From: Tistrella mobilis
Lineage (GTDB): Bacteria; Pseudomonadota; Alphaproteobacteria; Tistrellales; Tistrellaceae
Assembly: GCF_039634785.1 (NCBI RefSeq)
Contig: NZ_JBBIAB010000025.1
Coordinates: forward strand, 1 to 64,000
DNA: 64,000 bases
Reading direction: 5' to 3'
The position numbers and the translations under genes were made by a program. Positions 23,587 through 59,400 of this stretch are shown here, one piece after another (the stretch's first letter is position 1; each line of letters opens with the position of its first letter). The notes under the pieces were generated by a model. The model worked only from the letters and a program-made list of their open reading frames with translations, searched no databases and was not told the origin of the DNA.

Positions 23587-24687
23587 CGCCTCGTCCGGAT
23601 CGGCAAACTCCGCCGCGATTTCGCGGAAGCGGTCGGCGAGGGTCAGGAAGGCGTCGACGATGTCGGGGTCGAAATGGGTGCCGCGGCCCTGGGTGATGAT
23701 GTCGACCGCGGTGTCGTGGGAATAGGCGGGCTTGTAGATCCGCCGGCAGATCAGCGCGTCATAGACATCGGCCACCGCCATCAGCCGGCCCGAGAGCGGG
23801 ATGGCATCGCCGGCCAGGCCGCGGGGGTAGCCGCTGCCGTCCCATTTTTCGTGATGGGTATGGGCGATCTCGCGGGCGTAGCGCAGGAAGGAATTGCCAT
23901 TGCCCGAGCCGATCCGGGCCTCGGCGGCGGCGATGGCGGCGCGGCCGAATTCGGCATGCTGCTTCATCACCTCGAATTCCTCGGGCGTCAGCCGGCCGGG
24001 CTTGAGCAGGATGGCGTCGGGCACGCCGACCTTGCCGATATCGTGCAGCGGGGCGGATTTGTAGAGCAGGTCGATGGTGGCATCGTCGAGGTCCGCGCGA
24101 AAGCGGGGATGATCCCTGAGGGCCAGCGCCAGTTCGCGGACATAGGTCTGGGTGCGGCGGATATGGTTGCCGGTCTCGTTGTCGCGGGTTTCGGCCAGCG
24201 AGGCGAGCGAGAAGATGGTCAGGTCGCGGACCAGGGCCAGTTCGCGGGTGCGCTCGTCCACCCGCCGCTCCAGCTCGGCATTCTGGCGCGCAAGCCGGGC
24301 ATTGGCTTCCCTGAGCGCCAGATGGGTGCGCACCCGGGCGCGCACGATCTCGGGCGAGAAGGGCTTGGTGATGAAGTCGACGCCGCCGGCCGCGAAGCCC
24401 GCGCGCTCGTCGCGCTCGTCGTGGAGTGCGGTCAGGAAGATGACCGGAATGTCGGCGGTGGCCGGATCGGCCTTCAGCCGCCGGCAGACCTCGTAGCCGT
24501 CCATGCCCGGCATCATCACGTCCATCAGCACCAGATCGGGCCGGCCCTCGGCCCCGGCGGCGATCTCCAGCGCCTTGGCGCCGCCGGTCGCGATGCGGGT
24601 GCGGTAGTCGTCCTTCAGCACCGCATTGATGATGGTGAGATTGGACGGCGTGTCGTCCACCAGCAGAATGGTCTTGCGGTCGGTCAT
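23584..24687 (-). CDS. Response regulator with HD-GYP c-di-GMP phosphodiesterase domain
   Basis: 367 residues: receiver domain (acidic pair DD at 11-12, phospho-acceptor Asp56 in [13 protein letters not shown], Lys108), a coiled-coil linker (about 125-155) and a C-terminal HD-GYP domain with LHDIGKVG (His215-Asp216) and [14 protein letters not shown]. The family hydrolyses cyclic di-GMP to GMP at a metal centre, lowering biofilm formation and raising motility. Its ATG overlaps the stop of the giant hybrid kinase by four bases, making the kinase's Hpt domain the obvious phosphodonor. Confidence 0.93.
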
Positions 24688-41474: not shown

Positions 41475-41755
41475 TCGGCAGCTGCCGTCAAGCGGCGGCG
41501 TGGCGCATGTAAACCGCCATTTGCAGAGCAGAATTCGCGACATGAAACGCGGTATGTGACCTTCACTTCATATGGTTAAAAATCAGGAAATCCGGGGCGT
41601 AAAGCATCATCTGGCGCACAGCTTAACAGCCGTTGTGTGACGATCGGGGTTTACTGTTGCGTGATGCAAAGCTTTGGTGAAGGATGATGAGGCACGGGCC
41701 TGACCAGGCCCGTGTTGACCCCTGTCCGACATATCCTTCCCGGGACGTCCTTACG
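41475..41755 (+). other. 281-bp intergenic region
   Basis: No open frame with support. AT-rich stretch around 41560-41600 should contain the IalB promoter. A perfect 10-bp hairpin follows at 41693-41714. Confidence 0.4.
41693..41714 (+). other. Perfect 10-bp stem in the leader of the IalB-like gene
   Basis: CACGGGCCTG and CAGGCCCGTG separated by two bases, about 40 bases before the start codon. Too far from a T-tract for a terminator; may stabilise the mRNA leader or act as an operator. Confidence 0.4.
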
Positions 41756-42325
41756 ATGATGCAGCGCGGCTCCACCGCCCGTCTGGTTCTTCTTGCCGCC
41801 ACGCTTGCGGCGACCCTCGGCCTGGCGGGCACCGCCGGCGCGGTGGCGCAGAGCGCGCCCGCCGCAAAGCCGGCCGATGCCCCCGCCCCCGCCGAACCGC
41901 AGAAGGTGGACGGCTCGGCCCCGGCCTGGACGGTGACCTGCGTGTCGCGCGGGCGCGCCGCCGCGGCCGACTGCACCATGGAGCAGCGGCTGTTCAACAG
42001 CGATAACGGCCAGCTGATGTCGGTGGCGGTGGTCAGCGTGCCGGGCGAAAGCCGCAAGCCCGAGCTGGTGCTGCAGCTGCCGACCGGCCTGACCCTGACC
42101 GAGCCCGTGACCCTGGCGGTGGATGACGGCACGCCGGTGCCGGTGACCGTGCGGTCCTGCGACGGCCGCGGCTGCTTCGCGGCCCTGCCGCTCAGCGGCG
42201 ATCTTCTGAAAGCGATGCGCGCCGGCAAGGTGATGTCGGTCCGTGCCGTCGCCGGCAACGGCGCCGTGCTGACCTTCCCCCATATGCTGATCGATTTCAC
42301 CGCCGCCTTCGACGCGGTGAAGTGA
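41756..42325 (+). CDS. Invasion-associated locus B (IalB)-like exported protein
   Basis: 189 residues: signal peptide (LVLLAATLAATLGLAGTAGA, cleavage near VAQS), a Pro/Ala-rich linker, then the IalB domain with WTVTCVSRG, DCTMEQRLF, VTVRSCDGRGCFAALPL. Four Cys give the usual two disulphides. First identified near Bartonella invasion genes, the family is widespread in alphaproteobacteria as a periplasmic protein of unclear function. Located 98 bases before the giant autotransporter gene in the same direction, possibly cotranscribed with it. Confidence 0.88.
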   Translation: MMQRGSTARLVLLAATLAATLGLAGTAGAVAQSAPAAKPADAPAPAEPQKVDGSAPAWTVTCVSRGRAAAADCTMEQRLFNSDNGQLMSVAVVSVPGESRKPELVLQLPTGLTLTEPVTLAVDDGTPVPVTVRSCDGRGCFAALPLSGDLLKAMRAGKVMSVRAVAGNGAVLTFPHMLIDFTAAFDAVK

Positions 42326-42423: not shown

Positions 42424-45400
42424 ATGGCGAAGTCGGGTTCCTTCCTGAATTGCGGGAACATGACGGCCATCGGGGCCCTCCTCGGTCTCGGCGTCACGGG
42501 ATGCCTGATCACAGGAGCCATGATCACGGTCGGGCCGGCATTTGCCGGCAATGCCGAGGTCTCGACCGGGCCGGCCTATTATTATGTCAACCAGCAGCCC
42601 TCGCCCGGCACCGGATCCAAGGGATCGAACGCCAGCTTCAACGGCTTCAGCTGCGACAAGCCCGATAGTGGCGGCCAGGGCCCGACCGGCACCGCCGTGA
42701 CCGCGACCGTCACGCCCGGCATCTCCACCACCACCGCCTATGGCGGCACGCTGGTGGTCGCCGGCAGCACCGGCGGTACCGGTGGCACGGGTGGTTCCGA
42801 CAAGACCGGCGTCTGCGGCAATGGCCGCGGCGGCGGCACCGGCGGCACGGGCGGTGCCGTCACCGTCACGCTGAACGGCGCCAGCAGCGACGTCTATCCC
42901 ATCGCCAACACCACCATCGTCGCCTACAGCCAGGGCGGGACCGGCGGCACCGGCGGCAACACCAACGATCCCGGCGCCCATGGCGGCGATGGCGGGTCGG
43001 GCGGTGCCGGCGGCACGGTCACCGTCACCAACAACATGGCGCTCAACATCCAGGGCGGTTCGTCGTCGCTGGGGATCGTGGCCCAAAGCGCCGGCGGCCA
43101 GGGCGGCGACGGTGGCAACAACAATGGCGGCCTCTGGGGCAATGGCGGCGACGGCGTGCCCGGCGGTGCCGGCGGCAACGTCACCATCACCAACAATGCC
43201 GCGATCACCACCGCGGCCGGCACCCCGCTCGCCGCCCAGTCGATCGGCGGTTTCGGCGGCGATGGCGGCAGCAGCAACGGCACCTTCGGCGGCTATAGCG
43301 GCGGCGGCGGCTATGGCGGCAATGCCGGGCTGGTCACGATCAACAATATCGGCGTGCTGACGGTCGGCACGGCCGCGAACCCCTCGGCCGCGGCCGGTGC
43401 GACCGCGATCTATGCCCAGTCCGTCGGCGGCGGCGGCGGCAATGCCGGTGTCGCGGCCGGGCTGGTGGCGCTGGGTGCCGATGGCGGCAAGGCCGGATCG
43501 GGCAGCCTGGTCACGGTCAACAATTCCAGCACCATCACCGCCTATGGCCCATCCTCGGTGGGCATCTTCGCCCAATCGGTGGGCGGCGCCGGCGGCAGCG
43601 GCGGCATGGCCTTCTCGGCTTCAGGCAGCAGTGCTTCGGTCGCGGTCGGCGGGTCGGGCGGCGATGGCGGATCGGGCGGGTCGGTGGCGGTGAACAACAC
43701 CGCCGATATCTGCACCGGCAATGGCTGCATCCCCTCGCTCGCCACCACCCCCGTCACCACCGACTCGGCCGGCGGCGCGGTCGGCGTGCTGGCGCAGTCG
43801 GTGGGCGGCGGCGGCGGTGTCGGCGGCATGGGTCTCTCGGGCTCAGGCTCGGGCCTCGCCTTCGCGGTCGGCGGCTCGGGCGGCGGCGGCGGCAATGCCG
43901 GCTCGGTCGCCGTGCTCAGCACCGGTTCGATCACGACGGTCGAGGTGAACTCGGCCGGTATCCTCGCCCAGTCGGTGGGCGGCGGCGGCGGTGTCGGCGG
44001 CGGTGCGGTCGCGCTCTCGGCCAGTTCCGGACAGAGCGCCTCGCTCTCCCATGGCGGATCGGGCGGCAGCGGCGGTTCGGCCGGGTCGGTCGCGGTCAAC
44101 TGCAACAGCTTCAGCGGCGATTCCTCCGCCGCCGGCGCCTGCAGCGGCCAGGGCCGGCTGGGCGGGTTGACCACGGGCAAGACCATCTCGACCGTCGGCG
44201 ACGGCTCGTCGGCCATTGCCGGCCAGTCGATCGGCGGTGGCGGCGGCTCCGGCGGCTATGCGGTCTCGCTGGCCGCCGGCTTCCAGGGCAGTTTCGCGCT
44301 GTCTTACGGCGGCAAGGGCGGCAAGGGCGGCAATGGCGGCCAGGTCTATGTCAGCCCCAACGGCATCACGCTGACCACCACCGGCGTCGGCGCCTCGGCC
44401 CTGGTCGGCCAGTCGATCGGCGGCGGCGGCGGTGGCGGCGGCTCGACGGTCGATGCCAGCCTGGCGGTCGCGAACAGTGCCCTCAGCTTCGGCGTCGGCG
44501 GATCGGGCGGCGCCGCGGGTGCCGGCAGCACGGTGATCGTCGAGAACACCGGCAGCGTCATCACCACCTCGGGCGACAGCTCGCACGGCATTCTGGCCCA
44601 GTCCATCGGCGGCGGCGGCGGCTCCGGCGGCTCGGCGCTGGGGCTTTCGGCCAGCCCGCAGCTGGCGGTGTCGCTGGGTGTCGGCGGGTCGGGCGGCGCC
44701 GGCGGTGCCGCGGGCGCGGTCACCGCCCACAATTATGCCGCCAACAGCAGCCAGACCGCTGCGATCACCACCTATGGCTATGGCGCCAGCGCCATTCTGG
44801 CGCAGTCGATCGGCGGTGGCGGCGGCAATGGCGGCTACACCACCTCGGGCGCGCTCAGCTATTCCAGCGGCGCTTCGGCCGCGATCGGCGGTGCCGGCGG
44901 CAGCGGCAATAATGGCGGCACGGTCCAGGTGGTCAACACCGGGCTGATCAACACCTATGGCGGCGGTGCCGCGGCGATCGCCGCCCAGTCGATCGGCGGC
45001 GGCGGCGGTTCGGGCGGCTATGCGGTCGCAGGTTCGATCAGCGGCTCGGTTTCGGCCAATATCGGCGCCGGCGGCAGCGGCGCCTCGGGCGGTGCCGGCG
45101 GTGCGGTGACCCTGGTCAATCAGGCCGCCGTGACGGTTTCGGCCGCCAGCACCGGCAACGCCCCTGCCCTTCTGGCGCAGTCGATCGGCGGCGGCGGCGG
45201 CTCGGGTGGCTTCTCAGGCGCCGCCGGTCTCAGCTCGAACGGCACCGCCAGCATGGCGGTGGGCGGCGGCGGCGGCAATGGCGGCACCGGCGGCACGGTC
45301 ACCGTCGACAATTATTCGGCCCTCACCGTCACCGGGCCGCTCTCGCCCGGCGTGGTCGCCCAGTCGATGGGCGGCAATGGCGGCTCGGGCGGTTTCGCCA

Positions 45401-48400
45401 TCGCCGGCTCCTTCGGCGAAAGCGGCGCGGTCTCGGCCGCGATCGGCGGCGGCGGCGGCAAGGGCGGCCGCGCCAGCCAGGTGACCGTCACCATCCAGGG
45501 CGGCGGGCGCGTCTCGACCACCGGCCATCAGTCTGCCGGCGTTCTGGCCCAGTCGATCGGCGGTGCCGGCGGCAATGGCGGCTGGGACATCGCCGGCAGC
45601 CTGGGCGGGCTGGGTTCGGCCGGCGTCAGCCTGGGCGGCAGCGGCGGCGGCGGCGGTGCCGCGGGCGGCGTGACCATTGCCACCTACGACACCATCACCA
45701 CCACCGGCCTTCTGTCGCACGGCATCGTGGCACAGTCGATCGGCGGCAGCGGCGGCCTCGGCGGCTTCAGCGCCGGTGCGGCGGGATCGACCATCGCGGC
45801 CCCGGCCGTCGCGGTCGGCGGCTATGGCGGCAGCGGCGGCACCGGCGGCACGGTTACGGTCAACACCTATACCGGCATCTCGACCGCAGGCGATCTTGCC
45901 ACGGCAATCATCGCCCAGTCGATCGGCGGCACCGGCGGCAGCGGTGGCGCCGCCTATTCCGGCTCGGTGTCGACCGGCAACCCGGCCTCGAAGATCTCGG
46001 TCGGTGCGGCCGGCGCCACCGGCGGCAGCGGCGGATCGGGCCAGAATGGCGGCGCGGTCTCGGTGACGGTCGCCAACAACCTGGTCACCAGCGGGTTCGA
46101 CGCCTATGGCATCATCGCCCAGTCTATCGGCGGCGGCGGCGGCAATGGCGGCAATGCCTCGGCCTTCGCGGCCTCGGCCTCGGGCGGCGGCGAGAAGTCG
46201 GAAAGCGGTTCGGCCTCGGTCGCGATCGGCGGGTCGGGTGCGGCCGGCGGCAATGCCGGCGCGGTCGCGGTCACGCTCTCCGGCAGCATCCAGACCGGCA
46301 TGGCCGGTGTCGCGCCGGGCAATCCGGGCGCCGGTGACCGCTCGGTCGCCATCCTGGCCCAGTCGGTGGGCGGCAGCGGCGGCAATGGCGGATCGGCCTA
46401 TGCCAATGCGATTTCAGGCACGGGCGCCATTTCGGTCGCGGTCGGCGGCGGCGGCGGCACGGGCGGCACCGGCGGCAAGGTCACGGTCTGCGGCAATGTC
46501 AGCTCGGGCAGCTGCAGCAATCCCTGGGGTGGCGTCACCGCCACCGGCGGCAGCATTCTGACCTATGGCAACCACGCAAGCGCCATCTACGCCCAGTCGG
46601 TGGGCGGTGGCGGCGGCCGCGGCGGCTATTCGGAAAGCAGTGCGTCCAGCAACAAATACGCCGCCTCGCTGGCGGTGGGCGGCTTCGGCGGCGGCGGCGG
46701 CAATGCCGATGCGGTGACGGTGGTCGCCGGCGGCACGCTCGCCACCACCGGTGCCGGGTCGACGGCGATCTTCGCCCAGTCGGTCGGCGGCGGCGGCGGC
46801 GATGGCGGCACGGCCACCGCTTCGGCCACCGGCCAGCAGGGCGGCGCACTGGATGGCGGTGTCGCGGCCTATACCGGCACCGGCTTCGCCCAGCAGACCA
46901 ATACCGGTGCGGCGGTCGCGACCGCCGCCCAGTTCTCGCAGAGCGGCCCGGCCGCTTCGACCGACGAGGAAGCCGATAACGGCGTCGGCGCCTCGCTCGC
47001 CATCGGCGGCGCCGGCGGCAAGGCCGGCAATGGCGGCGCCGTGCTGGTCAGCAGCGTCGCCACCGTCACCACCTCGGGCATGCTGTCGAACGGCATCACC
47101 GCGCAGTCGGTGGGCGGTGGCGGCGGCAATGGCGGCTCGGCCACCACCAATGCGGCCGGCGGCAATTATGCCGGCTCCATCAGCCTGGGCGGCACCGGTG
47201 GTGGCGGCGGCGCCGGGTCGACCGCAACGGTCGTGAACACCGGCAGCATCACCACCAGCGGCCTGCAATCGGCGGCGATCTTCGCCCAGTCGGTCGGCGG
47301 CGGCGGCGGCAATGGCGGGGCGGCCTCCAGCACGGTCGAAAGCGGCGGTTCGGGCGCGCTCTCCTTCGGCCTCGGCGGATCGGGCGGCGGCGGCGGTGCG
47401 GCCAATCTGGTCACCGTGCTGAATTTCGGCACGCTCAGGACCACGGGCATCAATTCGGCCGGCATCTTCGCCCAGTCGGTGGGCGGCGGCGGCGGCAATG
47501 GCGGCGGCGCCACCACGGCGGCCACCGCGGCCCCGGCCTCGGACGACGACGAGGAAGACGGCTCGACCAGCGCCTCCACCGGCTCCGTGCCGACCTCGGG
47601 TTCCGGTCAGTCGAACAGCAGCCACAATTCGGCCTCGGCCGGCAAGACCGGCTCCACCTCTCAGGGCAGCCAGGCGGGCGCCGATGGCGGCTATGCCGCC
47701 GGCCTCGCGATCGGCGGCTCGGGCGGCGGCGGTGCGGCCGGCGGCGGCATCGTGGTCACCAACTCGGCCAGCATCACCACCGGCACCTCCGACGGCAAGG
47801 GCGGGCTCAATTCGCAGGCGATCTTCGCCCAGTCGGTCGGCGGCGGTGGCGGCAATGGCGGTTCGGCCAGTTCCAACGCCGATGCCGGCAAGGCCAGCGT
47901 CGCGCTTTCGATGGGCGGTACCGGCGGCGGCGCCGGCGCGGGCGGTGCGGTGAATGTCGGCCTCGGCGGCGGCACGCTCACCACCTATGGCGCCAATGCG
48001 GCGGCGGTCTATGCCCAGTCGGTGGGCGGCGGCGGCGGCAATGGCGGCTCGTCCAGCTCCACCACCGGCTCGGGCGGCTCGGCCTCGGTGGCGCTCGGCC
48101 TCGGCGGCTCGGGTGCCGGGGGCGGCGCCGGCGGCAGCGTGAATGTCTGCGGCAGCATTTCGAACAACATCTGCAACGGCGATCAGGCGCGCCCCACCTC
48201 CATCACCACCTGGGGCGATCTCTCCTACGGCATCTATGTCCAGTCGGTGGGCGGCGGCGGCGGCAATGGCGGCGCGGTCACCACCTCGGCCACCGCCGGC
48301 CAGGCGGATGACAGCGAACCCGGCGCCAGTGTCTCCAGCGGCTCCACCGGGACCTCTGCCTCCACCTCCAAGGGTGTGGCGATGTCGGCCGGCCTCGGCG

Positions 48401-51400
48401 GCTCGGGCGGCGGCGGCGGGTCCGGCGGCACGGTTTCGGTGAACAGCGCCACGACCATCCAGACCGCGGGCGCCCATGCAACCGCGATCTACGCCCAGTC
48501 GGTGGGCGGCGGCGGCGGCACCGGCGCCTCGGCCACCACCAATGCCAATAGCGGCGCCTATGCCACCAGCTTCGCGCTCGGCGGATCCGGCGGCAATGGC
48601 GGGGCCGGCGGCGCCGTCTATGTCGTGAATGACGGCACGCTCGCCACCTACGGCTTCCTCTCGCACGGCATCTTCGCCCAGTCGGTCGGCGGCGGCGGCG
48701 GCGATGCCGGCGGCGCATCCTCGACCTCCGCCCAGGGGGGTGAAGCCTCGCTCGCCATGGCCCTCGGCGGATCGGGCGGCGGCGGCCAGAACGGCCAGGG
48801 CGTCACGGTCACCAGCCGCGGCGTGATCACCACGGCGGCCGGCGCCGCGCATGCGATCGTCGCCCAGTCTGTTGGCGGCGGCGGCGGCCTCGGCGGCTCG
48901 GCACAGTCCAGCGCGTCGGGCGGCAAGATTTCGGCGCCGGTCACCCTCGGCGGCGGCGGCGGCATTTCCGGGTCGGGCGGAACCGTCAGCGTTTACATCA
49001 CCCGCGACATCACCGCCTCGGGCATCGGCAGCGGCGCGGTCATCGCCCAGTCGATCGGCGGCGGCGGCGGCATTTCCGACATCATCGACATCACCAGCGC
49101 CACCCGCGCCTCGGCTTCGGCCAGCCTGACGCTCGGTTCGTCGTCGAGCAATGCCGGCGACGGCGGCAAGATCCTGGTCAGCACCGGCGGCGGCACCTCG
49201 GCGCTGATCCAGACCGGCGGCGACAATGCCAGCGCGCTGGTCGTGCAGTCGATCGGCGGTGGCGGCGGCATCGCAACCTTCAGCGCCGGCAAGATTTCGG
49301 GCGCGGTTTCGCCCACCTTCACCCTCGGCGCCAGCCGGGGCGGCGGCAGCGGCGGCACCAGTGCGGCCGATGCGGTGATGCTGACCCTGGGCGACAGCGG
49401 CGGCACCACCTCGATCGAAACCTGGGGCCGCAATTCGATGGGTGTCGCGGTCCAGTCGATCGGCAGCGGCGGCGGCATCGCCGGCTTTGCGACCACCTCG
49501 GCCGGCAGCACCACCGCCACGGCGCAGCTCGGCCAGTCGGGCGGCGGCGGCAATGGCCGCGCGGTTACGCTGTCGGGAACGGCCAGCATCATCACCCATG
49601 CCGACAATGCAATCGGCGCGGTGGTCCAGTCCGTCGCCGGCGGCGGCGGTGTCGCCCTCGCCGCGGCCGGCCCCGGGGCCATCTTCTCGGGCAGCACGCG
49701 GCTCGGCGCCACCGGTGGCGGCACGGGTGACGGCGGCACGGTGAACGTCAACCTGACCGGCGGACGGATCGTCACCAACGGCTTCAACGCCCATGGTCTG
49801 GTCGTCCAGTCGATCGCGGGCGGCGGCGGCCTTTCCGGTATCCGCACCACCAGCCTCACGCTCGGCGGCGTGGTGGCCGGCTATGGCAACACGGTCACGG
49901 TCGCCAGTTCGTCGGCCATCACCACCTATGGTACCTCCGCCTCGGGCATCATCGCGCAGTCGATCGGCGGCGGCGGCGGTATCGGCACCAGCGACGGCCA
50001 GGTCAGCTTCGCCAGCGCGCCCAGCGGATCGAATTCCCGCCAGGTCCTGGTCACCACCACCGGGGCCGGCGCGGTCCAGACACAAGGGGCCACCTCTTTC
50101 GGCATCCTGGCGCAGTCGATCGGCGGTGGCGGCGGCGCGGTCTTCGGGCCGAACCGGCTGTTCGGCGCAACCTTCGGCGCCTCTGTCGCCTATGCCGAGA
50201 GTATCGGCGTCGATGTCGGCGCCAATGTCATCACGACGGGTATGGCCTCGGTCGCCGTGCTCGGCCAGTCGATCGGCGGCGGCGGCGGCGTGGTCGCCTC
50301 CACCGCGGCGGATGCGGGTTTCACCTCTTACGGCACCGGCCTGAACGGCGCCAATGCCAGCGGGCTGAACGCAGGCACCGTCGCCATCACCACCCGCAAC
50401 CAGACCATCGCCACCGCCGGCGCCAATGCCGCGGCGGTGGTGGGCCAGGCGGTGGGCGCAGGCGGCGCCTTCTTCACCCAGGCCAATACCGCAAGCCAGG
50501 GCTCGGTCGGCATCACCGCCTGGCTCGGCACCGTCAATGGCAGCGGCAATGGCGGCGCCGACGTGGCCGACGCGATCAAGATCGCGCTGGGTGCAGGCGG
50601 CACCACCACCATCGACACCTCGGGCGCCAACGCCTTCGGCGCGGTCGCCCAGGCGGTCGGCGGCGGCGGCGGCATCATCGCGATGTCCAACCAGGCGACC
50701 GGCGGCACCATCAACGGCGCCAATCTGGGCCAGCGCGGCGGCAGCGGCAGCGGTATGGCCACCACCCTGACCGGCACCGCGAATATCGTGACCCGCGGCA
50801 CCAATGCGCTGGGTGCGGTTGCCCAGTCGGTCAGCAATGGCGGCGGCATCGTCGTGGTCTCGGGCCAGGCGGGGGCGGCCTTCACCGGCAATGTCCGGCT
50901 GGGCGCCATCGGCGGCAGCGGCAGCAACGGCCGGACGGTCACCGTGAACCTGACCAATGGCAGCATCGCCACCGGCGGTGCCTATGCCCATGGTCTGGTG
51001 GCCCAGTCCATCGCCGGCGGCGGCGGCATTTCCGGCGTGCTCACCAACGACGTGACGCTGGGCGGCGTGGTCGCCGGCAATGGCGGCGCCGTCAGCGTCG
51101 CAAGCTCAGCGGCGGTCACCACCTACGGCACGGCGGCAGCCGGCATCGTCGCCCAGTCGATCGGCGGCGGTGGCGGGCTCGCCATCGGCACCGGCGCCGT
51201 CACCTTCGCCAATACGCCCAGCGGGTCGAATGCCAGCCAGGTGACCGTCACCACTTCCGGCGGTGGCGCGGTTCAAACCCAGGGCGCCACCTCTTTCGGC
51301 ATTCTGGCGCAGTCGGTGGGCGGCGGCGGCGGCGCGATCTTCGGGCCGACGGCCCTTCTCAGCACCAATCTCGGGACCGGCATCGGCTATGCCGGCAATA

Positions 51401-54400
51401 TCGGCATCGATGCCGGCGCGAACGTCGTCACCTCGGGCACGGGTTCGGTCGCCATCCTGGTTCAGTCGATCGGCGGCGGCGGCGGCGTGATCGCCTCCAC
51501 CACCTCGAATGCCGGCTTCGTCAATTACGGGACGGGGCTGAACAGCGCCGGCAACGGCAATCTGAACGCCGGCACCGTCGCCGTCACCACCCGCAACCAC
51601 ACCATCGCGACCTCGGGCGCCAATGCCGCAGCCGTGGTGGGCCAGGCCGTGGGTGCCAGCGGCGTGTTCTTCACCCAGGCGAACAGCGCCAGCCAGGGCG
51701 CGGTCAACGTCACCGGCTATCTGGGCACCGTCAGTGCGGGCGGCAATGGCGGCGCGGATGTCGCCGACGCGATCAAGGTCACGCTCGGCGCCGGCGGTCT
51801 CACCACCATCGACACCTCGGGCGCCAATGCCTTCGGCGCGATCGCCCAGTCGGTGGGCGGCGGTGGCGGCATCGTCGCGATTGCCACCCAGGCGACCGGC
51901 GGCACGGTCAAGGGCGCCATTCTGGGCCAGCGCGGCGGCAGCGGCACGGGCCTTGCCACCACGCTGACCGGCACCGCGAATATCGTGACCCGCGGCACCA
52001 ATGCGCTGGGCGCGGTCGCCCAGTCGATCAGCACCGGCGGCGGCATCTTCGTGGTGTCGGGCCAGTCGGGGGCGACCTTCACCGGCAATGTCCGGCTGGG
52101 CGCCACCGGCGGCAGCGGCAGCGATACCCGTGCGGTGAATGTCAACCTGTCGGGCGGCAGCATCGCCACCGGCGGCGCCTATGCCCATGGTCTGGTGGCC
52201 CAGTCCATCGCCGGCGGCGGCGGCATTTCCGGCGTGCTCACCAACGACGTGACGCTGGGCGGCGTGCTGGCCGGCAAGGGCGGCACGGTCGCCGTCTCCA
52301 GTTCGGCAGCCGTCACCACCTATGGCACGGCGGCGGCCGGCATCGTCGCCCAGTCGATCGGCGGCGGTGGCGGGCTTGCCATCGGCACCGGCGCCGTCAC
52401 CTTCGCCAATACGCCCAGCGGGTCGAATGCCGGCCAGGTGACCGTCACCACCTCCGGCGGCGGCGCGGTTCAAACCCAGGGCGCCACCTCTTTCGGCATT
52501 CTGGCGCAGTCGGTCGGCGGCGGCGGCGGCGCGATCTTCGGGCCGACGTCTCTCCTCAGCACCAATCTCGGCACCGGCATCGGCTATGCCGGCAATATCG
52601 CGGTCGATGCGGGCGCGAACGTCGTCACCTCGGGCGCGGGCTCGGTCGCCATCCTGGGTCAGTCGATCGGCGGCGGCGGCGGCGTGATCGCCTCCACCAC
52701 CGCGAATGACGGCTTCGTCAATTACGGGACGGGCCTGAACAGCGCCGGTAACGGCAATCTGAACGCCGGCACCGTCGCCGTCACCACCCGCAACCAGACC
52801 ATCGCGACCTCGGGCGTGAACGCCGCAGCCGTGGTCGGCCAGTCGGTGGGCGCCGGCGGCGTGTACTTCACCCAGGCCAATACCGTCAGCCAGGGCACGA
52901 TCAACGTCAGCGGCTATCTGGGCACGGTCAGTGCGGGCGGCAATGGCGGCGCCAATGTCGCCGATGCGATCAAGGTGACGCTGGGTGCAGGGGGTGTGAC
53001 CACCATCGACACCTCGGGCGCCAATGCCTTCGGCGCGGTCGCACAGTCGGTGGGCGGCGGCGGCGGCATCGTCGCCATCTCCACCCGCGCCAGTTATGGC
53101 AACGCCAAGGGGGTGCAGCTCGGCCAGCGCGGTGGCAACGGCATGGGCATGGCGACCACGGTGACGGGTGCCGCCAGCATCGTCACCCGCGGCAACAACG
53201 CCTTCGGCATCGTCGCGCAGTCGGTCAGCAATGGCGGCGGCATCCTGGCCGTGGCGACCCCCGGGCTGGAGTTCTTCACCGGCACGGCAATCCTCGGCGC
53301 CCGCGGCGGCAGCGGCAACAATGCCGGCAATGCCACCGTCAACCTCTCGGGCGGCGGCGGCATCACCACCACCGGCGTGTTTGCCCATGGCATCGTCGCC
53401 CAGTCGATCGCGGGCGGCGGCGGCATCTCGACGCTGAACACCGATACGGTGCAGATGGGCGGCGGCACGGCCGGCATCGCCGGGGTCGCCAGCGTCACGG
53501 CGCTGGCACCGGTTGCGACGTCCGGCATCGGCGCCAGCGCCATCGTCGCCCAGTCGATCGGCGGCGGCGGCGGCCTGGCGCTCACCAGCTACAATGCCCA
53601 GTTCATCAGCACCACCGGCGGCAGCGATGCCAGCACGGTGGGGGTCACCACCACCGGCAATGGCTGGCTGCAGACCACCGGCAATCTGGGCTTCGGCATC
53701 CTGGCCCAGTCGATCGGCGGCGGCGGCGGTGCCTTCATCGCCCCCAATCACGGCGTCATCGCCAGCTTCGGCGCCTCGGCCGCCTATGCGGGCGGGGTCT
53801 ATGTCGATGCCGGGGCGAATGTGGTGACCACCGGCCAGGGCTCCACCGCCATTCTCGCCCAGTCGGTGGGCGGCGGCGGCGGCGTCATCGCCTCCAGCTT
53901 CGCCGATGCCGCCTATACCAGCTATGTCGCCAATGTCTATGGCAGCAGCGGCGGCAGTGACTATGGCAACAATGTCGCCGTCACCACCCATGGCCAGACC
54001 ATCGCAACCTCGGGCGCCAATGGCGCGGCGGTGATCGCCCAGTCGGTGGGCGGCAGCGGCGTGTATTACGCCCAGACCAACACCGCCGCCCAGGGCAGCA
54101 TCCATGCCACCTTCAACCTGGGCAGCGGGGTCGGCAGCGGCAATGGCGGCGTCAGCCAGACCGATTCGGTCAAGGTGACGCTGGGCAGCGGCGGCGCCAC
54201 CACCATCGACACCTCGGGCGCCAATGCCTTCGGCGTGGTCGCACAGTCGGTGGGGGCCGGCGGCGGCATCTATGCCATCGCCACCCAGTCGACCGGCGGG
54301 TCGATCGACAGCAGCCGGCTCGGCGCCCGTGGCGGCGGCGGTGTCGGCCTCGCCGCCACCGTCACCGGGGCGGCGAACATCACCACCCGCGGCACCAATG

Positions 54401-57400
54401 CGCTGGGCGTGGTCGCGCAGTCGATCAGCGGCGGCGGCGGCATCGCCGTGGTCGCCGGCCAGTCGGGCAGCACGGGCTATTCGGGGCCGGTGACGCTCGG
54501 CACCTATACCGGCGGCGGCGGCAATGGCGGGGTGGTCAATGTCAACCTCTCCGGCGGCAGCATCACCACCGGCGGCGTCTTCGCCCCGGGCCTGGTGGCG
54601 CAGTCGATCGCCGGTGGCGGCGGCATTTCGGGCGTTCACAGCAGCGGTGTCTATCTGGGCGGCTATGTTGCCGGCAACGGCAACACGGTCACCGTCAGCA
54701 GCGGTGCCGCCATCGGCACGATCGGCAATGCCTCGGCCGGCATCGTCGCCCAGTCGATCGGCGGCGGCGGCGGTCTCGCCCTCGCCAATGGCGGCAATGC
54801 CGTCATCCTGAACGCGCCCAGCGGCTCCAACGCCTCGCAGGTGAGGGTCACCACCACCGGCAGCGGATCGGTCCAGACTCAAGGGGCCACGGCCTTCGGC
54901 ATTCTGGCGCAGTCGATCGGCGGTGCCGGCGGCGCGGTGTTCAGCCCGGTGAACCAGGCCACGGCCGGCTTCGGCGCCGGCATCGCCTATGGCGGCAGCA
55001 TCGTCATCGACACGGCGGCGAATGTCGTCACTTCGGGCGCCGGCTCGGCGGGCATCGTCGGCCAGTCGATCGGCGGTGGCGGCGGCGTGATCGCCTCGGC
55101 CTTCTCCAATGCCAACGTCACCAGCTATGGCGTTACCCTGAACGCCGCCAACGCCAGCGGGCTGAACGGCAACACCGTCGCCGTCACCACGCGCACCCAG
55201 ACCATCGCAACCGCCGGCGCCAATGCCGCGGGCGTGATCGCCCAGTCGATCGGCGCCGGCGGCACCTATTTCACCCAGGCAAATGCCGCCTCGCAGGGGG
55301 CGGTGCACACCGCGATCAATCTCGGCACCCCGGTCGGCAAGGGCGATGGCGGCCAGAACACCACCTATTCCACCAACGTCACCCTGGGCGCCGGCGGCGT
55401 CACCACCATCGATACCTCGGGTGCCAATGCCTATGGCGTGGTCGGCCAGTCGATCGGCGGCGGCGGCATCGTCTCCATCGCCACCCTGTCGAGCGGCGGC
55501 TGGATCGATGCCGGCATCATCGGCCAGCGCGGCGGCGGCGGATCGGCCATGCCGACCAGCGTCAGCGGCACCGCGAACATCGTCACCCGCGGCACCAATG
55601 CCGCCGGCGTGATCGTGCAGTCGATCTCGGGCGGCGGCGGCGTCGCCAGCCTGTCCTCTCAGTCCGGCGCCTGGTTCTCGGGGATGGTGACGCTCGGCGC
55701 CACCGGCGGCAACGGCGCCAATGCCAACACCGCCTATGGCTATCTGGCGGCCGGCAGCGTCACCACCAGCGGCGCCTTCGCCCCCGGCCTGGTGGTGCAG
55801 TCGATCGCGGGCGGCGGCGGCATCGCGGGCATCCATACCGATGCCGTTCGCCTGGGCGGGCCGCTCAATGGCAATGGCGGCACGGTCTCGGCAACAAGCT
55901 CGGCGCTGATCACCACCTATGGCGGCGCCTCTCCCGGCATCGTCGCCCAGTCGATCGGCGGCGGCGGCGGTCTCGCCCATGGCGCCGGCCAGGTCTATTT
56001 CAACTCGGCCGTCAGCGGCTCCAATGCCGGCAATGTCTGGCTGACCACCGGCACCGGCGGCACGGTGCAGACCGTCGGCAGTGTGTCCTATGGCATCCTC
56101 GCCCAGTCGGTGGGCGGTGCCGGTGGCGCGGTGTTCTCGGAATACCGCCAGCTTTCGGCCAATTTCGGCTCGGCCATCGCCTATGGCAGCGCCGTGACGC
56201 TGAACGTGCCGACCAGCGTCATCACCAACGGTGTCGGCTCCACCGCCATCCTGGCCCAGTCGGTCGGCGGCGGCGGCGGCGTGGTCGCCTCGGTCTTCGC
56301 CGATGCCAATGTCACCAATTATGGCATCGGCAATATGGGCGGCGGCGGCAGCAATCTGAACGGTGGCGCCGTCTCCATCACCACCCAGAACCAGACCATC
56401 GCCACGACGGCAGCCAATGCAACGGCCGTGGTCGCGCAGTCGGTGGGCGACAACGGCATCTTCTTCACCCAGACCAACACCGCCGCGCAGTCTTCCGCTT
56501 CGGTCAACCTGCAGCTCGGCGCGGTGCGCGGTTCGGGCAATGGCGGGCCGTCGCAGAATGATGCGGTGGCGGGCTATCTGGGCAATGCGGTCATCCAGAC
56601 CTCGGGCGCCAATTCGCTCGGCGTGCTGGTGCAGTCGGTGGGCGGCGGCGGCGGTTTCGCCTCGATCGCAACCCAGGCCTCGGGCGGCAGCATCAATGCC
56701 CGCCTCGGCCAGCAGGGTGGCGCGGGTTCCGCCCAGGACATCACCATCACCGGCGCGCCCAAGGTGCTGACCCAGGGCGTCAACGCGGCCGGCGTGGTCG
56801 CCCAGGCGATCACCGGCGGCGGCGGCGTGATGGCGGTGTCCGGCACCAGCGGTGCGGTCTTCTCGGGCAGCGTCTATCTGGGCGGCACGGGCGGCGGCAC
56901 CAGCGGCAATGCCGCGGTCTCCATGACCCTCAGCGGCGGCAGCATCCAGACCGGCGGCAGCTTCGCGCCGGGCCTGGTCGCCCAGGTGATCTCGGGCGGC
57001 GGCGGCCTCTCGGCCATCAACGCCACCTCGGTCAATCTGGGCGGGACGGTCGCCAGCAAGTCGAACACGCTGACGGTGACCAATGGCGCGGCCATCACCA
57101 CCACCGGTGCCGCCTCTCCCGGTCTCGTCGCCCAGTCGATCGGCGGCGGCGGCGGTCTGGCGCTGGCTGCCACCGGGGCCAGCGTCCGGGTCGGCAACAA
57201 GGCGAGCGGCGCCGACGGCAGCAACATCACCATCACCAGCAATGGCCAGATCTACACCACCGGCGTGAACTCCTTCGGCATTCTGGCGCAGAGCGTCGGC
57301 TCCGGCGGCGGCACGGTGCTCACCACCGGCGGCACGGTCTCGGCGGCGGCCAATGCGTCCAGCAAGGCCAGCGCCGGCAGCGTCACGGTCGGCGTCAACG

Positions 57401-59400
57401 CGCCCATCACCACCACCGGGGCGGGTGCCCATGGCGTGGTCGCCCAGTCCGCCGCCGGCGGCGGCGGCATCGTCACCAACGGCACCACCACCCTGTTCCT
57501 GTCGGGCAATGGCGGTGGCAGCAGCCATGCCGTCTCGGTCTATGTCTATGCCCCGATCACGGTCAGCGGCGCCGGTGCCAGCGCGGTGGTGGCGCATTCC
57601 ACCACCGACCCGGTGGTGGAGATTGCCGAAGGCGTGGTGGTCACCGGCGCGGCCGACGGCCATGCCCTGCTGCTCGACGGCCCGATCAACGAGGTCACCA
57701 ATGCCGGCACGCTGCAGACCCTCGCCGGCGGCGACGGGCTGGTGATCGACAGCCGGATCGGCGACACCACCGTCACCAACAAGGGCACGCTGACCGGCAG
57801 CATCAAGCTCAGCGACGGCGGCGCCAATCTGCTGACCAACCAGGCCGGCGGCACGATCAATTCGGGGGCGAGCATCGACCTGGGCGGCACCGGCAGCTTC
57901 ATCAATCACGGCCGGCTGCAATCGGCGACCGCGGGCGTGGTCACGACCACGATCAATGGCGGCTTCACCCAGTCTGCCGATGGCGAGCTGCAGCTGCGCG
58001 TCGATCATGCGACCGGCAAGGCCGACGGGCTGCACATCACCGGCGCTGCCAGCATGGACGGCAAGCTGTCGCTCGCCACGATCAACAGCGGTTCGGTGAA
58101 GCCGGGCCGGCTGGCGATCGCCGATGTCCTGGTCTCGGATACCGGGCTGGCCGCGGGCAATCTGGAGCTTTCGGCCCCCGCCAGCGCGATCCTGAGCTAC
58201 AGCCTGACCAACACCGATGGCCGGCTGGGCATCCAGGCCGATGCCGATTTCACGCCCGAGGGCCTCAGCGGCTTCGGCCGGCGGATCGGTGAGCTGCTGG
58301 GCCGGGTCCAGAGCGAGGCGGCCTCGGAATATTCCAAGGCGATCACCGCCGGGCTGGTCTCGATCAGCGACACGGCGACCCTTGATCGCGGCTATCGCAG
58401 CGTCGGCGATACGGGGGCGGCCAGCGTGCCCCAGAGCATGCTCACCGCCAGCACGCGCGCCATGCAGACGGTGACCGGCCGGCTCGACAGCTGGCGGATG
58501 GGGGCGGCAGCGGCGGCGCCCGGCAGCCGGGAGGCGGCACTCGACCAGACGGCGACCGCGCCCGGGGGTGGCAATACGGCCGGAGGACGGGCCTGGATGA
58601 CGCCGGAAGGCGCCTATGAAACCGGCGGCGGTTTCGACGGGCATTATTTCGGCACCACCATCGGCATCGATGGCGGCGCCGATGACGGCAGCTTCCTGGT
58701 CGGCGGCGCCTTCACCTATGGCGAGACCAGCTACGACCTGGACGGGCTCTCGGCCAGCGGCACCGGCAAGCAGTACGGGGTGAGCGTCTATGGTCTGCGT
58801 CGCTTCGGCGAGGCCTATGCCTCGGTCATCGGCTATGCCGCGACGGGCGATACCCGCTACACCCGCGATCTGCGCTTCCTGGGCATGCCCCGCGCGGCCG
58901 TGACCCGTTTCGACGGCACCACGCTGGGTGCGCGGCTGGAGGTGGGCTACGCCCTGCCGCTGACCGCAGGGCTGAAGATCACCCCCTTCGCGGCGGTGGA
59001 GCCGACCCGTCTGCATCTGGACGAGGCCCGCGACAGCTTCGGCAATGGCGGCGGCGTGGTCTACGAGGCCTCGGACACGATCTCGATGCCGATGACGCTG
59101 GGCTTCCAGATCGGCGGCCCGGTGACGTTCGAGGACGGCAGCCGGATCGAGCCCTTCTTCCGCGCCGGCTGGAAGCACGAATTCCGGCCCGAGCGCGACA
59201 TCACCCGCCATCTGGCCGAACTGCCCGGGATCGGCTTCCAGGGCAGCGATGTCGAGGTGCCGGAAGATGCCGCCGTGCTCAGGGCCGGCGTGCAGTATCG
59301 CCTGGACGAGGATTTCGACCTGCAGCTGAGCGTCGACTCCGAGCTGTCGGAAGAACGCCGCTCGGTCGGCGGGACCCTGTCGCTGCGCTATCGCTGGTAG
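42424..59400 (+). CDS. Giant glycine-rich autotransporter adhesin (5658 residues)
   Basis: One uninterrupted frame of 5659 codons. Long signal peptide (cleavage near GPAFA-GN, residue 41), a passenger of about 5350 residues with some 80 copies of an [AV]QS[IV]GGGGG motif, and a C-terminal autotransporter beta-barrel (about 5390-5658) ending LSLRYRW with an aromatic last residue. Each motif follows a pattern of two short strands (for example VTVTNxGxITTxG) as in beta-helical adhesins. First half: irregular repeats with acidic and Cys-pair inserts. Second half: seven super-repeats of about 399 residues. It should be secreted through the outer membrane by its own barrel and extend as a fibre mediating adhesion or aggregation. 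GAGAGG lies upstream of the ATG. Size and regularity are exceptional; function is inferred. Confidence 0.9.
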   Translation: MAKSGSFLNCGNMTAIGALLGLGVTGCLITGAMITVGPAFAGNAEVSTGPAYYYVNQQPSPGTGSKGSNASFNGFSCDKPDSGGQGPTGTAVTATVTPGISTTTAYGGTLVVAGSTGGTGGTGGSDKTGVCGNGRGGGTGGTGGAVTVTLNGASSDVYPIANTTIVAYSQGGTGGTGGNTNDPGAHGGDGGSGGAGGTVTVTNNMALNIQGGSSSLGIVAQSAGGQGGDGGNNNGGLWGNGGDGVPGGAGGNVTITNNAAITTAAGTPLAAQSIGGFGGDGGSSNGTFGGYSGGGGYGGNAGLVTINNIGVLTVGTAANPSAAAGATAIYAQSVGGGGGNAGVAAGLVALGADGGKAGSGSLVTVNNSSTITAYGPSSVGIFAQSVGGAGGSGGMAFSASGSSASVAVGGSGGDGGSGGSVAVNNTADICTGNGCIPSLATTPVTTDSAGGAVGVLAQSVGGGGGVGGMGLSGSGSGLAFAVGGSGGGGGNAGSVAVLSTGSITTVEVNSAGILAQSVGGGGGVGGGAVALSASSGQSASLSHGGSGGSGGSAGSVAVNCNSFSGDSSAAGACSGQGRLGGLTTGKTISTVGDGSSAIAGQSIGGGGGSGGYAVSLAAGFQGSFALSYGGKGGKGGNGGQVYVSPNGITLTTTGVGASALVGQSIGGGGGGGGSTVDASLAVANSALSFGVGGSGGAAGAGSTVIVENTGSVITTSGDSSHGILAQSIGGGGGSGGSALGLSASPQLAVSLGVGGSGGAGGAAGAVTAHNYAANSSQTAAITTYGYGASAILAQSIGGGGGNGGYTTSGALSYSSGASAAIGGAGGSGNNGGTVQVVNTGLINTYGGGAAAIAAQSIGGGGGSGGYAVAGSISGSVSANIGAGGSGASGGAGGAVTLVNQAAVTVSAASTGNAPALLAQSIGGGGGSGGFSGAAGLSSNGTASMAVGGGGGNGGTGGTVTVDNYSALTVTGPLSPGVVAQSMGGNGGSGGFAIAGSFGESGAVSAAIGGGGGKGGRASQVTVTIQGGGRVSTTGHQSAGVLAQSIGGAGGNGGWDIAGSLGGLGSAGVSLGGSGGGGGAAGGVTIATYDTITTTGLLSHGIVAQSIGGSGGLGGFSAGAAGSTIAAPAVAVGGYGGSGGTGGTVTVNTYTGISTAGDLATAIIAQSIGGTGGSGGAAYSGSVSTGNPASKISVGAAGATGGSGGSGQNGGAVSVTVANNLVTSGFDAYGIIAQSIGGGGGNGGNASAFAASASGGGEKSESGSASVAIGGSGAAGGNAGAVAVTLSGSIQTGMAGVAPGNPGAGDRSVAILAQSVGGSGGNGGSAYANAISGTGAISVAVGGGGGTGGTGGKVTVCGNVSSGSCSNPWGGVTATGGSILTYGNHASAIYAQSVGGGGGRGGYSESSASSNKYAASLAVGGFGGGGGNADAVTVVAGGTLATTGAGSTAIFAQSVGGGGGDGGTATASATGQQGGALDGGVAAYTGTGFAQQTNTGAAVATAAQFSQSGPAASTDEEADNGVGASLAIGGAGGKAGNGGAVLVSSVATVTTSGMLSNGITAQSVGGGGGNGGSATTNAAGGNYAGSISLGGTGGGGGAGSTATVVNTGSITTSGLQSAAIFAQSVGGGGGNGGAASSTVESGGSGALSFGLGGSGGGGGAANLVTVLNFGTLRTTGINSAGIFAQSVGGGGGNGGGATTAATAAPASDDDEEDGSTSASTGSVPTSGSGQSNSSHNSASAGKTGSTSQGSQAGADGGYAAGLAIGGSGGGGAAGGGIVVTNSASITTGTSDGKGGLNSQAIFAQSVGGGGGNGGSASSNADAGKASVALSMGGTGGGAGAGGAVNVGLGGGTLTTYGANAAAVYAQSVGGGGGNGGSSSSTTGSGGSASVALGLGGSGAGGGAGGSVNVCGSISNNICNGDQARPTSITTWGDLSYGIYVQSVGGGGGNGGAVTTSATAGQADDSEPGASVSSGSTGTSASTSKGVAMSAGLGGSGGGGGSGGTVSVNSATTIQTAGAHATAIYAQSVGGGGGTGASATTNANSGAYATSFALGGSGGNGGAGGAVYVVNDGTLATYGFLSHGIFAQSVGGGGGDAGGASSTSAQGGEASLAMALGGSGGGGQNGQGVTVTSRGVITTAAGAAHAIVAQSVGGGGGLGGSAQSSASGGKISAPVTLGGGGGISGSGGTVSVYITRDITASGIGSGAVIAQSIGGGGGISDIIDITSATRASASASLTLGSSSSNAGDGGKILVSTGGGTSALIQTGGDNASALVVQSIGGGGGIATFSAGKISGAVSPTFTLGASRGGGSGGTSAADAVMLTLGDSGGTTSIETWGRNSMGVAVQSIGSGGGIAGFATTSAGSTTATAQLGQSGGGGNGRAVTLSGTASIITHADNAIGAVVQSVAGGGGVALAAAGPGAIFSGSTRLGATGGGTGDGGTVNVNLTGGRIVTNGFNAHGLVVQSIAGGGGLSGIRTTSLTLGGVVAGYGNTVTVASSSAITTYGTSASGIIAQSIGGGGGIGTSDGQVSFASAPSGSNSRQVLVTTTGAGAVQTQGATSFGILAQSIGGGGGAVFGPNRLFGATFGASVAYAESIGVDVGANVITTGMASVAVLGQSIGGGGGVVASTAADAGFTSYGTGLNGANASGLNAGTVAITTRNQTIATAGANAAAVVGQAVGAGGAFFTQANTASQGSVGITAWLGTVNGSGNGGADVADAIKIALGAGGTTTIDTSGANAFGAVAQAVGGGGGIIAMSNQATGGTINGANLGQRGGSGSGMATTLTGTANIVTRGTNALGAVAQSVSNGGGIVVVSGQAGAAFTGNVRLGAIGGSGSNGRTVTVNLTNGSIATGGAYAHGLVAQSIAGGGGISGVLTNDVTLGGVVAGNGGAVSVASSAAVTTYGTAAAGIVAQSIGGGGGLAIGTGAVTFANTPSGSNASQVTVTTSGGGAVQTQGATSFGILAQSVGGGGGAIFGPTALLSTNLGTGIGYAGNIGIDAGANVVTSGTGSVAILVQSIGGGGGVIASTTSNAGFVNYGTGLNSAGNGNLNAGTVAVTTRNHTIATSGANAAAVVGQAVGASGVFFTQANSASQGAVNVTGYLGTVSAGGNGGADVADAIKVTLGAGGLTTIDTSGANAFGAIAQSVGGGGGIVAIATQATGGTVKGAILGQRGGSGTGLATTLTGTANIVTRGTNALGAVAQSISTGGGIFVVSGQSGATFTGNVRLGATGGSGSDTRAVNVNLSGGSIATGGAYAHGLVAQSIAGGGGISGVLTNDVTLGGVLAGKGGTVAVSSSAAVTTYGTAAAGIVAQSIGGGGGLAIGTGAVTFANTPSGSNAGQVTVTTSGGGAVQTQGATSFGILAQSVGGGGGAIFGPTSLLSTNLGTGIGYAGNIAVDAGANVVTSGAGSVAILGQSIGGGGGVIASTTANDGFVNYGTGLNSAGNGNLNAGTVAVTTRNQTIATSGVNAAAVVGQSVGAGGVYFTQANTVSQGTINVSGYLGTVSAGGNGGANVADAIKVTLGAGGVTTIDTSGANAFGAVAQSVGGGGGIVAISTRASYGNAKGVQLGQRGGNGMGMATTVTGAASIVTRGNNAFGIVAQSVSNGGGILAVATPGLEFFTGTAILGARGGSGNNAGNATVNLSGGGGITTTGVFAHGIVAQSIAGGGGISTLNTDTVQMGGGTAGIAGVASVTALAPVATSGIGASAIVAQSIGGGGGLALTSYNAQFISTTGGSDASTVGVTTTGNGWLQTTGNLGFGILAQSIGGGGGAFIAPNHGVIASFGASAAYAGGVYVDAGANVVTTGQGSTAILAQSVGGGGGVIASSFADAAYTSYVANVYGSSGGSDYGNNVAVTTHGQTIATSGANGAAVIAQSVGGSGVYYAQTNTAAQGSIHATFNLGSGVGSGNGGVSQTDSVKVTLGSGGATTIDTSGANAFGVVAQSVGAGGGIYAIATQSTGGSIDSSRLGARGGGGVGLAATVTGAANITTRGTNALGVVAQSISGGGGIAVVAGQSGSTGYSGPVTLGTYTGGGGNGGVVNVNLSGGSITTGGVFAPGLVAQSIAGGGGISGVHSSGVYLGGYVAGNGNTVTVSSGAAIGTIGNASAGIVAQSIGGGGGLALANGGNAVILNAPSGSNASQVRVTTTGSGSVQTQGATAFGILAQSIGGAGGAVFSPVNQATAGFGAGIAYGGSIVIDTAANVVTSGAGSAGIVGQSIGGGGGVIASAFSNANVTSYGVTLNAANASGLNGNTVAVTTRTQTIATAGANAAGVIAQSIGAGGTYFTQANAASQGAVHTAINLGTPVGKGDGGQNTTYSTNVTLGAGGVTTIDTSGANAYGVVGQSIGGGGIVSIATLSSGGWIDAGIIGQRGGGGSAMPTSVSGTANIVTRGTNAAGVIVQSISGGGGVASLSSQSGAWFSGMVTLGATGGNGANANTAYGYLAAGSVTTSGAFAPGLVVQSIAGGGGIAGIHTDAVRLGGPLNGNGGTVSATSSALITTYGGASPGIVAQSIGGGGGLAHGAGQVYFNSAVSGSNAGNVWLTTGTGGTVQTVGSVSYGILAQSVGGAGGAVFSEYRQLSANFGSAIAYGSAVTLNVPTSVITNGVGSTAILAQSVGGGGGVVASVFADANVTNYGIGNMGGGGSNLNGGAVSITTQNQTIATTAANATAVVAQSVGDNGIFFTQTNTAAQSSASVNLQLGAVRGSGNGGPSQNDAVAGYLGNAVIQTSGANSLGVLVQSVGGGGGFASIATQASGGSINARLGQQGGAGSAQDITITGAPKVLTQGVNAAGVVAQAITGGGGVMAVSGTSGAVFSGSVYLGGTGGGTSGNAAVSMTLSGGSIQTGGSFAPGLVAQVISGGGGLSAINATSVNLGGTVASKSNTLTVTNGAAITTTGAASPGLVAQSIGGGGGLALAATGASVRVGNKASGADGSNITITSNGQIYTTGVNSFGILAQSVGSGGGTVLTTGGTVSAAANASSKASAGSVTVGVNAPITTTGAGAHGVVAQSAAGGGGIVTNGTTTLFLSGNGGGSSHAVSVYVYAPITVSGAGASAVVAHSTTDPVVEIAEGVVVTGAADGHALLLDGPINEVTNAGTLQTLAGGDGLVIDSRIGDTTVTNKGTLTGSIKLSDGGANLLTNQAGGTINSGASIDLGGTGSFINHGRLQSATAGVVTTTINGGFTQSADGELQLRVDHATGKADGLHITGAASMDGKLSLATINSGSVKPGRLAIADVLVSDTGLAAGNLELSAPASAILSYSLTNTDGRLGIQADADFTPEGLSGFGRRIGELLGRVQSEAASEYSKAITAGLVSISDTATLDRGYRSVGDTGAASVPQSMLTASTRAMQTVTGRLDSWRMGAAAAAPGSREAALDQTATAPGGGNTAGGRAWMTPEGAYETGGGFDGHYFGTTIGIDGGADDGSFLVGGAFTYGETSYDLDGLSASGTGKQYGVSVYGLRRFGEAYASVIGYAATGDTRYTRDLRFLGMPRAAVTRFDGTTLGARLEVGYALPLTAGLKITPFAAVEPTRLHLDEARDSFGNGGGVVYEASDTISMPMTLGFQIGGPVTFEDGSRIEPFFRAGWKHEFRPERDITRHLAELPGIGFQGSDVEVPEDAAVLRAGVQYRLDEDFDLQLSVDSELSEERRSVGGTLSLRYRW
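43060..49269 (+). repeat. Irregular glycine-rich repeats in the autotransporter (about 31 units)
   Basis: About 31 units of roughly 55-90 residues, each with AQS[VI]GGGGGxGG followed, usually, by a second Gly-rich string such as GGSGGGGGxGG and a short xVxVxNxGxITTxG strand pair. Lengths vary because of Cys-pair and Asp/Glu/Ser-rich insertions. At the DNA level the units contain GGC runs but few long exact repeats. Confidence 0.85.
49273..57657 (+). repeat. Seven super-repeats of about 1197 bp (399 residues), each with seven sub-motifs
   Basis: Anchored on the FFTQAN-type motif, units start at 49273, 50470, 51667, 52864, 54064, 55267 and 56461, giving spacings of 1197, 1197, 1197, 1200, 1203 and 1194 bp. 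Within every unit the seven sub-motifs keep a fixed order: TTIDTSGANAFG, ANIVTRGTNALG, GSIATGGAYAHG, AAVTTYGTAAAG, GAVQTQGATSFG, ANVVTSGTGSVA, QTIATSGANAAA, each followed by xQSxxGGGG. The second to fourth units are very similar in DNA; the last unit decays near its end (VVAHSTTDPV). Confidence 0.9.

Follow-up and report, generated by a model that had tools for sequence, protein, structure and literature searches.

A two-level repeat of seven blocks and seven ordered sub-units in a giant type Va autotransporter of Tistrella, and its probable origin by lineage-specific amplification

How a protein comes to be repeated on two levels at once, and what such an order builds, is the question raised by one gene in a 64,000-nt stretch of Tistrella DNA (the window, meaning the whole stretch analysed), whose product a sequence-only reading had described as seven super-units of seven ordered sub-motifs. 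This product is a type Va autotransporter of Tistrella (Alphaproteobacteria): passenger and PF03797 barrel (E 6.5e-41; 141 bits, cut-off 26) share one polypeptide, and the C-terminal end reads ...RYRW. No match for the passenger was found in Pfam and NCBIfam. The seven-block array extends from aa 2275 to 5058 and constitutes the C-terminal half of a larger passenger, the first half of which covers aa 221-2274 (Table 1).

To describe the repeat quantitatively, sub-units were delimited by cutting at the QS motif. The recurring anchor register was exactly as previously read (49273, 50470, 51667, 52864, 54064, 55267 and 56461, with spacings of 1197, 1197, 1197, 1200, 1203 and 1194), and its description as FFTQAN-type needs amending at the first anchor, which reads ATFSAGK. 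The proposed ~57 residues per sub-motif is right as a mean and conceals that each type has its own length (68, 58, 60, 50, 52, 51 and 60 aa for sub-units a-g), near-constant across all blocks. Leave-one-block-out HMMs, trained on six blocks at a time, correctly assigned 48 of the 49 sub-units of the left-out blocks; the sole misclassified sub-unit was the last of block 7, whose f position was also marginal. The constant order of seven sub-motifs was thereby recovered with one amendment, namely that the last block consists of abcde followed by two terminal sub-units of another kind (Y and Z). Sub-unit alignment scores peaked at distances of 7, 14 and 21 (168.9, 156.2 and 145.1, versus 55-70 at other distances). 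Shuffling the order of the 49 sub-units, which preserves the first-level repeat, gave a distance-7 score of 72.9 ± 5.4 (maximum 97); since none of 20,000 such shuffles reached the observed score, the two-level order is real and independent of the first-level repeat. Self-comparison at 399 residues likewise agreed with the sequence-only reading (protein identity 0.39 versus 0.124, sd 0.007, in shuffles). A two-level repeat of seven blocks by seven fixed-order sub-units is thus confirmed. Pairwise block identity was 43-87% in protein and 56-90% in DNA, the upper ends of both ranges belonging to U2/U3, the closest pair, whose high-identity DNA tract continues into the first part of U4. A second-level period was also looked for in the N-terminal half (aa 221-2274) and none was found; this half contains one-level repeats of about 61 aa.

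Table 1 Features of the autotransporter locus, in window coordinates
Feature	Position	Strand	Remark
IalB-family gene (PF06776)	41684..42325	+	directly upstream of autotransporter
Giant type Va autotransporter gene, 5,658 aa	42424..59400	+	single ORF, PF03797 barrel at C-terminus
Putative N-terminal signal peptide, ~aa 1-42 (...TVGPAFA/GNAEVS)	42424..42549	+	translation read by eye
N-type passenger, 30 one-level sub-units, aa 221-2274	43084..49245	+	predicted β-helix with polyglycine-II arms
Block U1, sub-units abcdefg	49246..50445	+	
Block U2	50446..51642	+	in AlphaFold2 model
U2 sub-unit a	50446-50649	+	
U2 sub-unit b	50650-50823	+	
U2 sub-unit c	50824-51003	+	
U2 sub-unit d	51004-51153	+	
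U2 sub-unit e	51154-51309	+	
U2 sub-unit f	51310-51462	+	
U2 sub-unit g	51463-51642	+	
Block U3	51643..52839	+	87% aa, 90% nt identity to U2
Block U4	52840..54039	+	
Block U5	54040..55242	+	
Block U6	55243..56436	+	
Block U7, terminal block abcdeYZ	56437..57597	+	
Linker / probable autochaperone region, passenger repeats to barrel	57598..58593	+	position; without Pfam match
Autotransporter β-barrel domain PF03797	58594..59337	+	E 6.5e-41

The nearest records are those of Tistrella itself, namely plasmid pTM2 of T. mobilis KA081020-065 and a second genome of the genus (G001), in which the ortholog is full-length, a single ORF and 95.3% identical in DNA; the same seven blocks occur in the window, in G001 and in pTM2. 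It is exceedingly improbable that the block number is an artefact in which a shorter gene was wrongly assembled. Long near-repeats readily invite such errors, and the pTM2 record indeed combines a 164-nt segment present twice with a split reading frame, but blocks differing mutually by 10-44% in DNA stand in the same order, with block-wise orthology, in three separately sequenced genomes. The pTM2 copy (L018:2422-19553) is read in three frames of 503, 3,955 and 772 aa, with the duplicated segment (~164 nt) at one junction, while each of the two other Tistrella genomes has one intact frame; the split reflects either an error in sequencing or a gene that is broken.

Between the two species the whole gene is under purifying selection (dN/dS 0.13). 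The N-type region is strongly conserved (dN 0.008, dN/dS 0.06), and among long stretches of the protein this N-terminal region, rather than the array, shows the highest conservation; in the array, block dN/dS ranges from 0.01 (U7) up to 0.33. U2 differs most between the species (dN 0.067, dS 0.22); at its start (~200 nt), identity is 99-100% between the two other Tistrella copies and 82-86% between these and the window copy. This comparison suggests that the sequence there was exchanged or has diverged locally. Conversion between the neighbouring blocks U2 and U3 was considered and rejected: over whole blocks, orthologs are as close as or closer than neighbours, and there is therefore no sign of wholesale homogenisation of the pair.

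To characterize the fold of the array, a two-block AlphaFold2 model was built on an alignment of 12 block pairs, from which rows of the plasmid record were left out. The model (pLDDT 88.4, pTM 0.93) shows 92.7% agreement of secondary structure between positions exactly 399 residues apart, in line with the earlier expectation that each super-unit would be a fixed solenoid segment of common fold. Foldseek alone returned no significant match for this model (best E 0.3); structural realignment identified the β-helices of Vag8 (Z 21.6 over 318 residues), Fap2 (Z 13.7) and P22 tailspike (Z 11.0). Approximately 13 sub-units of the model align with P22 tailspike residues 123-539, a segment that comprises 13 β-helix turns. 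Furthermore, an N-type AlphaFold2 model of 8.2 sub-units (pLDDT 85.8, pTM 0.83) aligned with Vag8 at Z 19.7 over 211 residues (rmsd 2.4 Å), its 8.2 sub-units falling on 218 Vag8 residues, or ~26 per sub-unit. A β-helix passenger is predicted from these two matches to Vag8.

Rungs were counted from the secondary structure of the models together with alignment spans. Because the P22 and Vag8 spans fit one rung per sub-unit, with which the predicted strand layout is compatible, it is well supported at the level of models that each sub-unit ending GxxAQS(I/V)GGGGG forms one right-handed β-helix rung, and each block would hence comprise seven. A rung of ~26 residues would be made of the strands VTVxN, ITT and GxxAQS, the remainder of the sub-unit being an excursion; predicted excursion lengths for a-g are about 42, 32, 34, 24, 26, 25 and 34 residues. 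The sequence-only reading had instead suggested that each 57-residue sub-motif equals three rungs of 19 residues, by which a block would be 21 rungs and about 10 nm long. The arithmetic is suitable (21 x 19 = 399) and 19-residue repeats are known in AIDA-I type autotransporters, but sub-unit lengths run from 50 to 68 with no multiples of 19, the predicted strands lack a 19-residue periodicity (autocorrelation −0.05 at lag 19) and reach 21 residues, and the P22/Vag8 spans fit one rung per sub-unit. We consider this division, which the AlphaFold2 models contradict, very unlikely.

The 30 N-type sub-units, mostly 61-68 aa, each contain QS(I/V)GGGGGxGG and GGxGGxGGxGG segments. In the N-type model the excursion has a hairpin of two short strands between two Gly stretches, GGGGGxGG (9 residues) and GGxGGxGGxxGG (12 residues), neither of which is β; the rungs have generally high pLDDT. 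Foldseek placed a springtail antifreeze protein (7jjv, E 2.6e-3), a polyproline-II bundle, first for this model and the snow flea antifreeze protein lower in the list; shared Gly composition inflates such matches. A search of PDB sequences with the N-type profile gave no match. A published precedent for GGX repeats folding as polyglycine-II sandwiches is provided by PE_PGRS (PMC10216338). On the model, the excursions of the N-terminal 30 rungs probably run on two polyglycine-II arms. We tentatively propose, as a possibility short of an even chance, a composite in which the N-terminal half is a β-helix with a β-hairpin on two polyglycine-II arms at every rung (their spacing matching the 4.8 Å rung rise), forming a finned rod, and in which the Tistrella stalk was lengthened in whole seven-rung quanta. 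A β-helix with polyglycine-II arms is without description in the open literature searched, where no paper paired polyglycine II with an autotransporter; if real, this fold would extend to a large unnamed autotransporter family rich in Gly and show what its poly-Gly stretches do.

To assess where the array came from, sub-units of relatives (the best 80 of at least 223 matches) were labelled with the a-g, N, Y and Z models. Tistrella reads as an N-type region followed by (abcdefg)6 abcdeYZ. Corresponding strings end in ...defgabcdeYZ in L019 (Burkholderiaceae), ...defgabcd??Z in L021 (Burkholderiales) and L023 (Paucibacter), ...def?bcdeYZ in L022, ...bcdeYZ in L020 (Sphingobium), and ...deYZ or similar in L025 (Variovorax), L035 (Aquabacter) and L038. 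Relatives in Sphingobium, Burkholderiales and Xanthobacteraceae thus hold approximately half to one and a half rounds of the block, and more than ~1.5 rounds was found in none of the relatives examined, a sample in which a distant multi-block relative could be missed since it comprises the best 80 of at least 223 matches. Distant loci, serving as a control (e.g., Synechococcus L034), gave random label letters. The Y and Z types of U7 also sit just before the linker in relatives, and N-terminal regions of close relatives are colinear with that of Tistrella at 41-48% identity; Tistrella bears both markers of the family, namely the GxxAQS(I/V)GGGGG ending of its sub-units and colinearity of the N-terminal order.

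In a tree built on the bcde part of the blocks, U1-U6 form one group, U7 lies between this group and the relatives, and orthologous blocks of the two species pair throughout; the tree is weakened by its long branches (U7, L020), and the fork that unites U1-U6 is left open in it. A block profile (E <= 1e-30) matched only Tistrella in a sample of 385 class and 398 phylum genomes, and no comparable long second-level period was found in 79 related loci. One of these, L080 (a Rhizobiaceae MAG), has a single long-lag self match (lag 1951, identity 0.34, short overlap), perhaps an independent large internal duplication to judge by its sequence.

Based on the labels of relatives, the tree and the genome search, the block appears to have been present about once, to have been amplified in Tistrella before these species split, and to have stayed at seven since. 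We favor, at a probability of roughly 0.6, the reading that a membrane-proximal stalk module of seven rungs underwent lineage-specific tandem amplification to give the array, in a giant type Va autotransporter passenger that has one rung per sub-unit. The block would have originated close to the C-terminus of a passenger that was older and shorter; by tandem duplication, the Tistrella lineage would then have placed six copies before the original terminal block, with U2/U3 as the putative youngest duplication, and the number would have remained steady in the three genomes as the copies evolved separately. Higher-order repeat growth in a surface protein could here be followed from a starting state (relatives with half to 1.5 blocks) to an amplified one (Tistrella), in blocks that kept their sub-unit lengths while diverging, which makes it testable whether adhesin length evolves in fixed structural quanta.

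It is established for the type Va class that the passenger adjoins the outer membrane with its C-terminal side, and for this reason we read the array as a stalk. Tistrella probably multiplied the block to lengthen the stalk that holds the protein tip off the cell. The array would add about 42 rungs of 0.48 nm each, or ~20 nm, within a ~38-nm rod of 79 rungs, lifting the older, more conserved N-terminal 30-rung region off the cell surface, and its pattern of long and short excursions would give a stalk ridge recurring every 3.4 nm. Contact, in a putative adhesin or aggregation factor, would be made by the N-terminal region with its predicted polyglycine-II arms; adhesion or aggregation as a purpose is inferred by analogy with the type Va class.

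Alternatively, the array may be a multivalent binding surface, in which an identical excursion pattern in each block engages one common ligand, either a glycan or its own kind on an adjacent cell, for avidity rather than length. Sub-unit lengths and excursion pattern are near-exact even in blocks of only 43-64% identity, an aromatic/Gln stretch (FFTQAN type) is repeated in most a sub-units, and self-associating β-helix autotransporters exist (PMC9289746); purifying selection on the blocks is also compatible with a binding role. We nevertheless regard this alternative as rather unlikely, given that excursions are less conserved than cores both between species (dN/dS 0.25 versus 0.135) and between blocks (0.44-0.53 versus 0.52-0.71), as would be expected of a scaffold more than of a common binding face, and that the long stretch with the strongest conservation is the N-terminal region and not the array.

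Among known systems, the closest solved fold is that of Vag8 (Bordetella pertussis autotransporter, PDB 7akv), a right-handed β-helix that, like pertactin, shares the type Va secretion class. Compared to Vag8 and pertactin, the Tistrella passenger is several times longer, has a Gly-rich excursion on every rung and adds a second-level seven-rung period. AIDA-I type autotransporters have a 19-residue repeat that is absent from Tistrella, with its sub-units of 50-68 residues and no 19-residue strand period. Nebulin super-repeats, in which seven ordered modules form each super-repeat of a two-level length scaffold, provide an analogy only, since protein, fold and organism are unrelated to the Tistrella autotransporter. 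Springtail and snow flea antifreeze proteins (7jjv, 2pne) and PE_PGRS polyglycine-II sandwiches (PMC10216338) share Gly-rich GGX segments, modelled as non-β in Tistrella, where unlike in those proteins they are 9- and 12-residue arms on predicted β-helix rungs. The same sub-unit as in Tistrella is found in QS(I/V)GGGGG Gly-rich autotransporters of Alpha-, Beta- and Gammaproteobacteria (L019-L097), the closest of which share its N-terminal order and terminal deYZ sub-units but, among the best 80 of at least 223 matches, have at most ~1.5 rounds of the block compared to seven. The Tistrella protein is thus a member of a large unnamed Gly-rich autotransporter family, set apart by the seven-fold amplification of seven rungs. 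No description of this array, and no paper pairing Tistrella with an autotransporter, was found in the open literature searched, whose coverage was limited.

The IalB-family gene also lies beside the ortholog in T. mobilis pTM2 and in the G001 locus, and an IalB relative occurs within the fetched loci of L051, L080, L089, L093 and L095. Opposite the repeat run two antisense ORFs, at 51106-59211 (-; 2,701 codons) and 46414-50991 (-; 1,525 codons), which are probably a by-product of G+C-rich Gly/Ala codons. Elsewhere in the window, positions 24684-29444 (-) encode a hybrid sensor kinase (1,586 aa) that combines periplasmic solute-binding domains with PAS, HisKA, receivers and Hpt.
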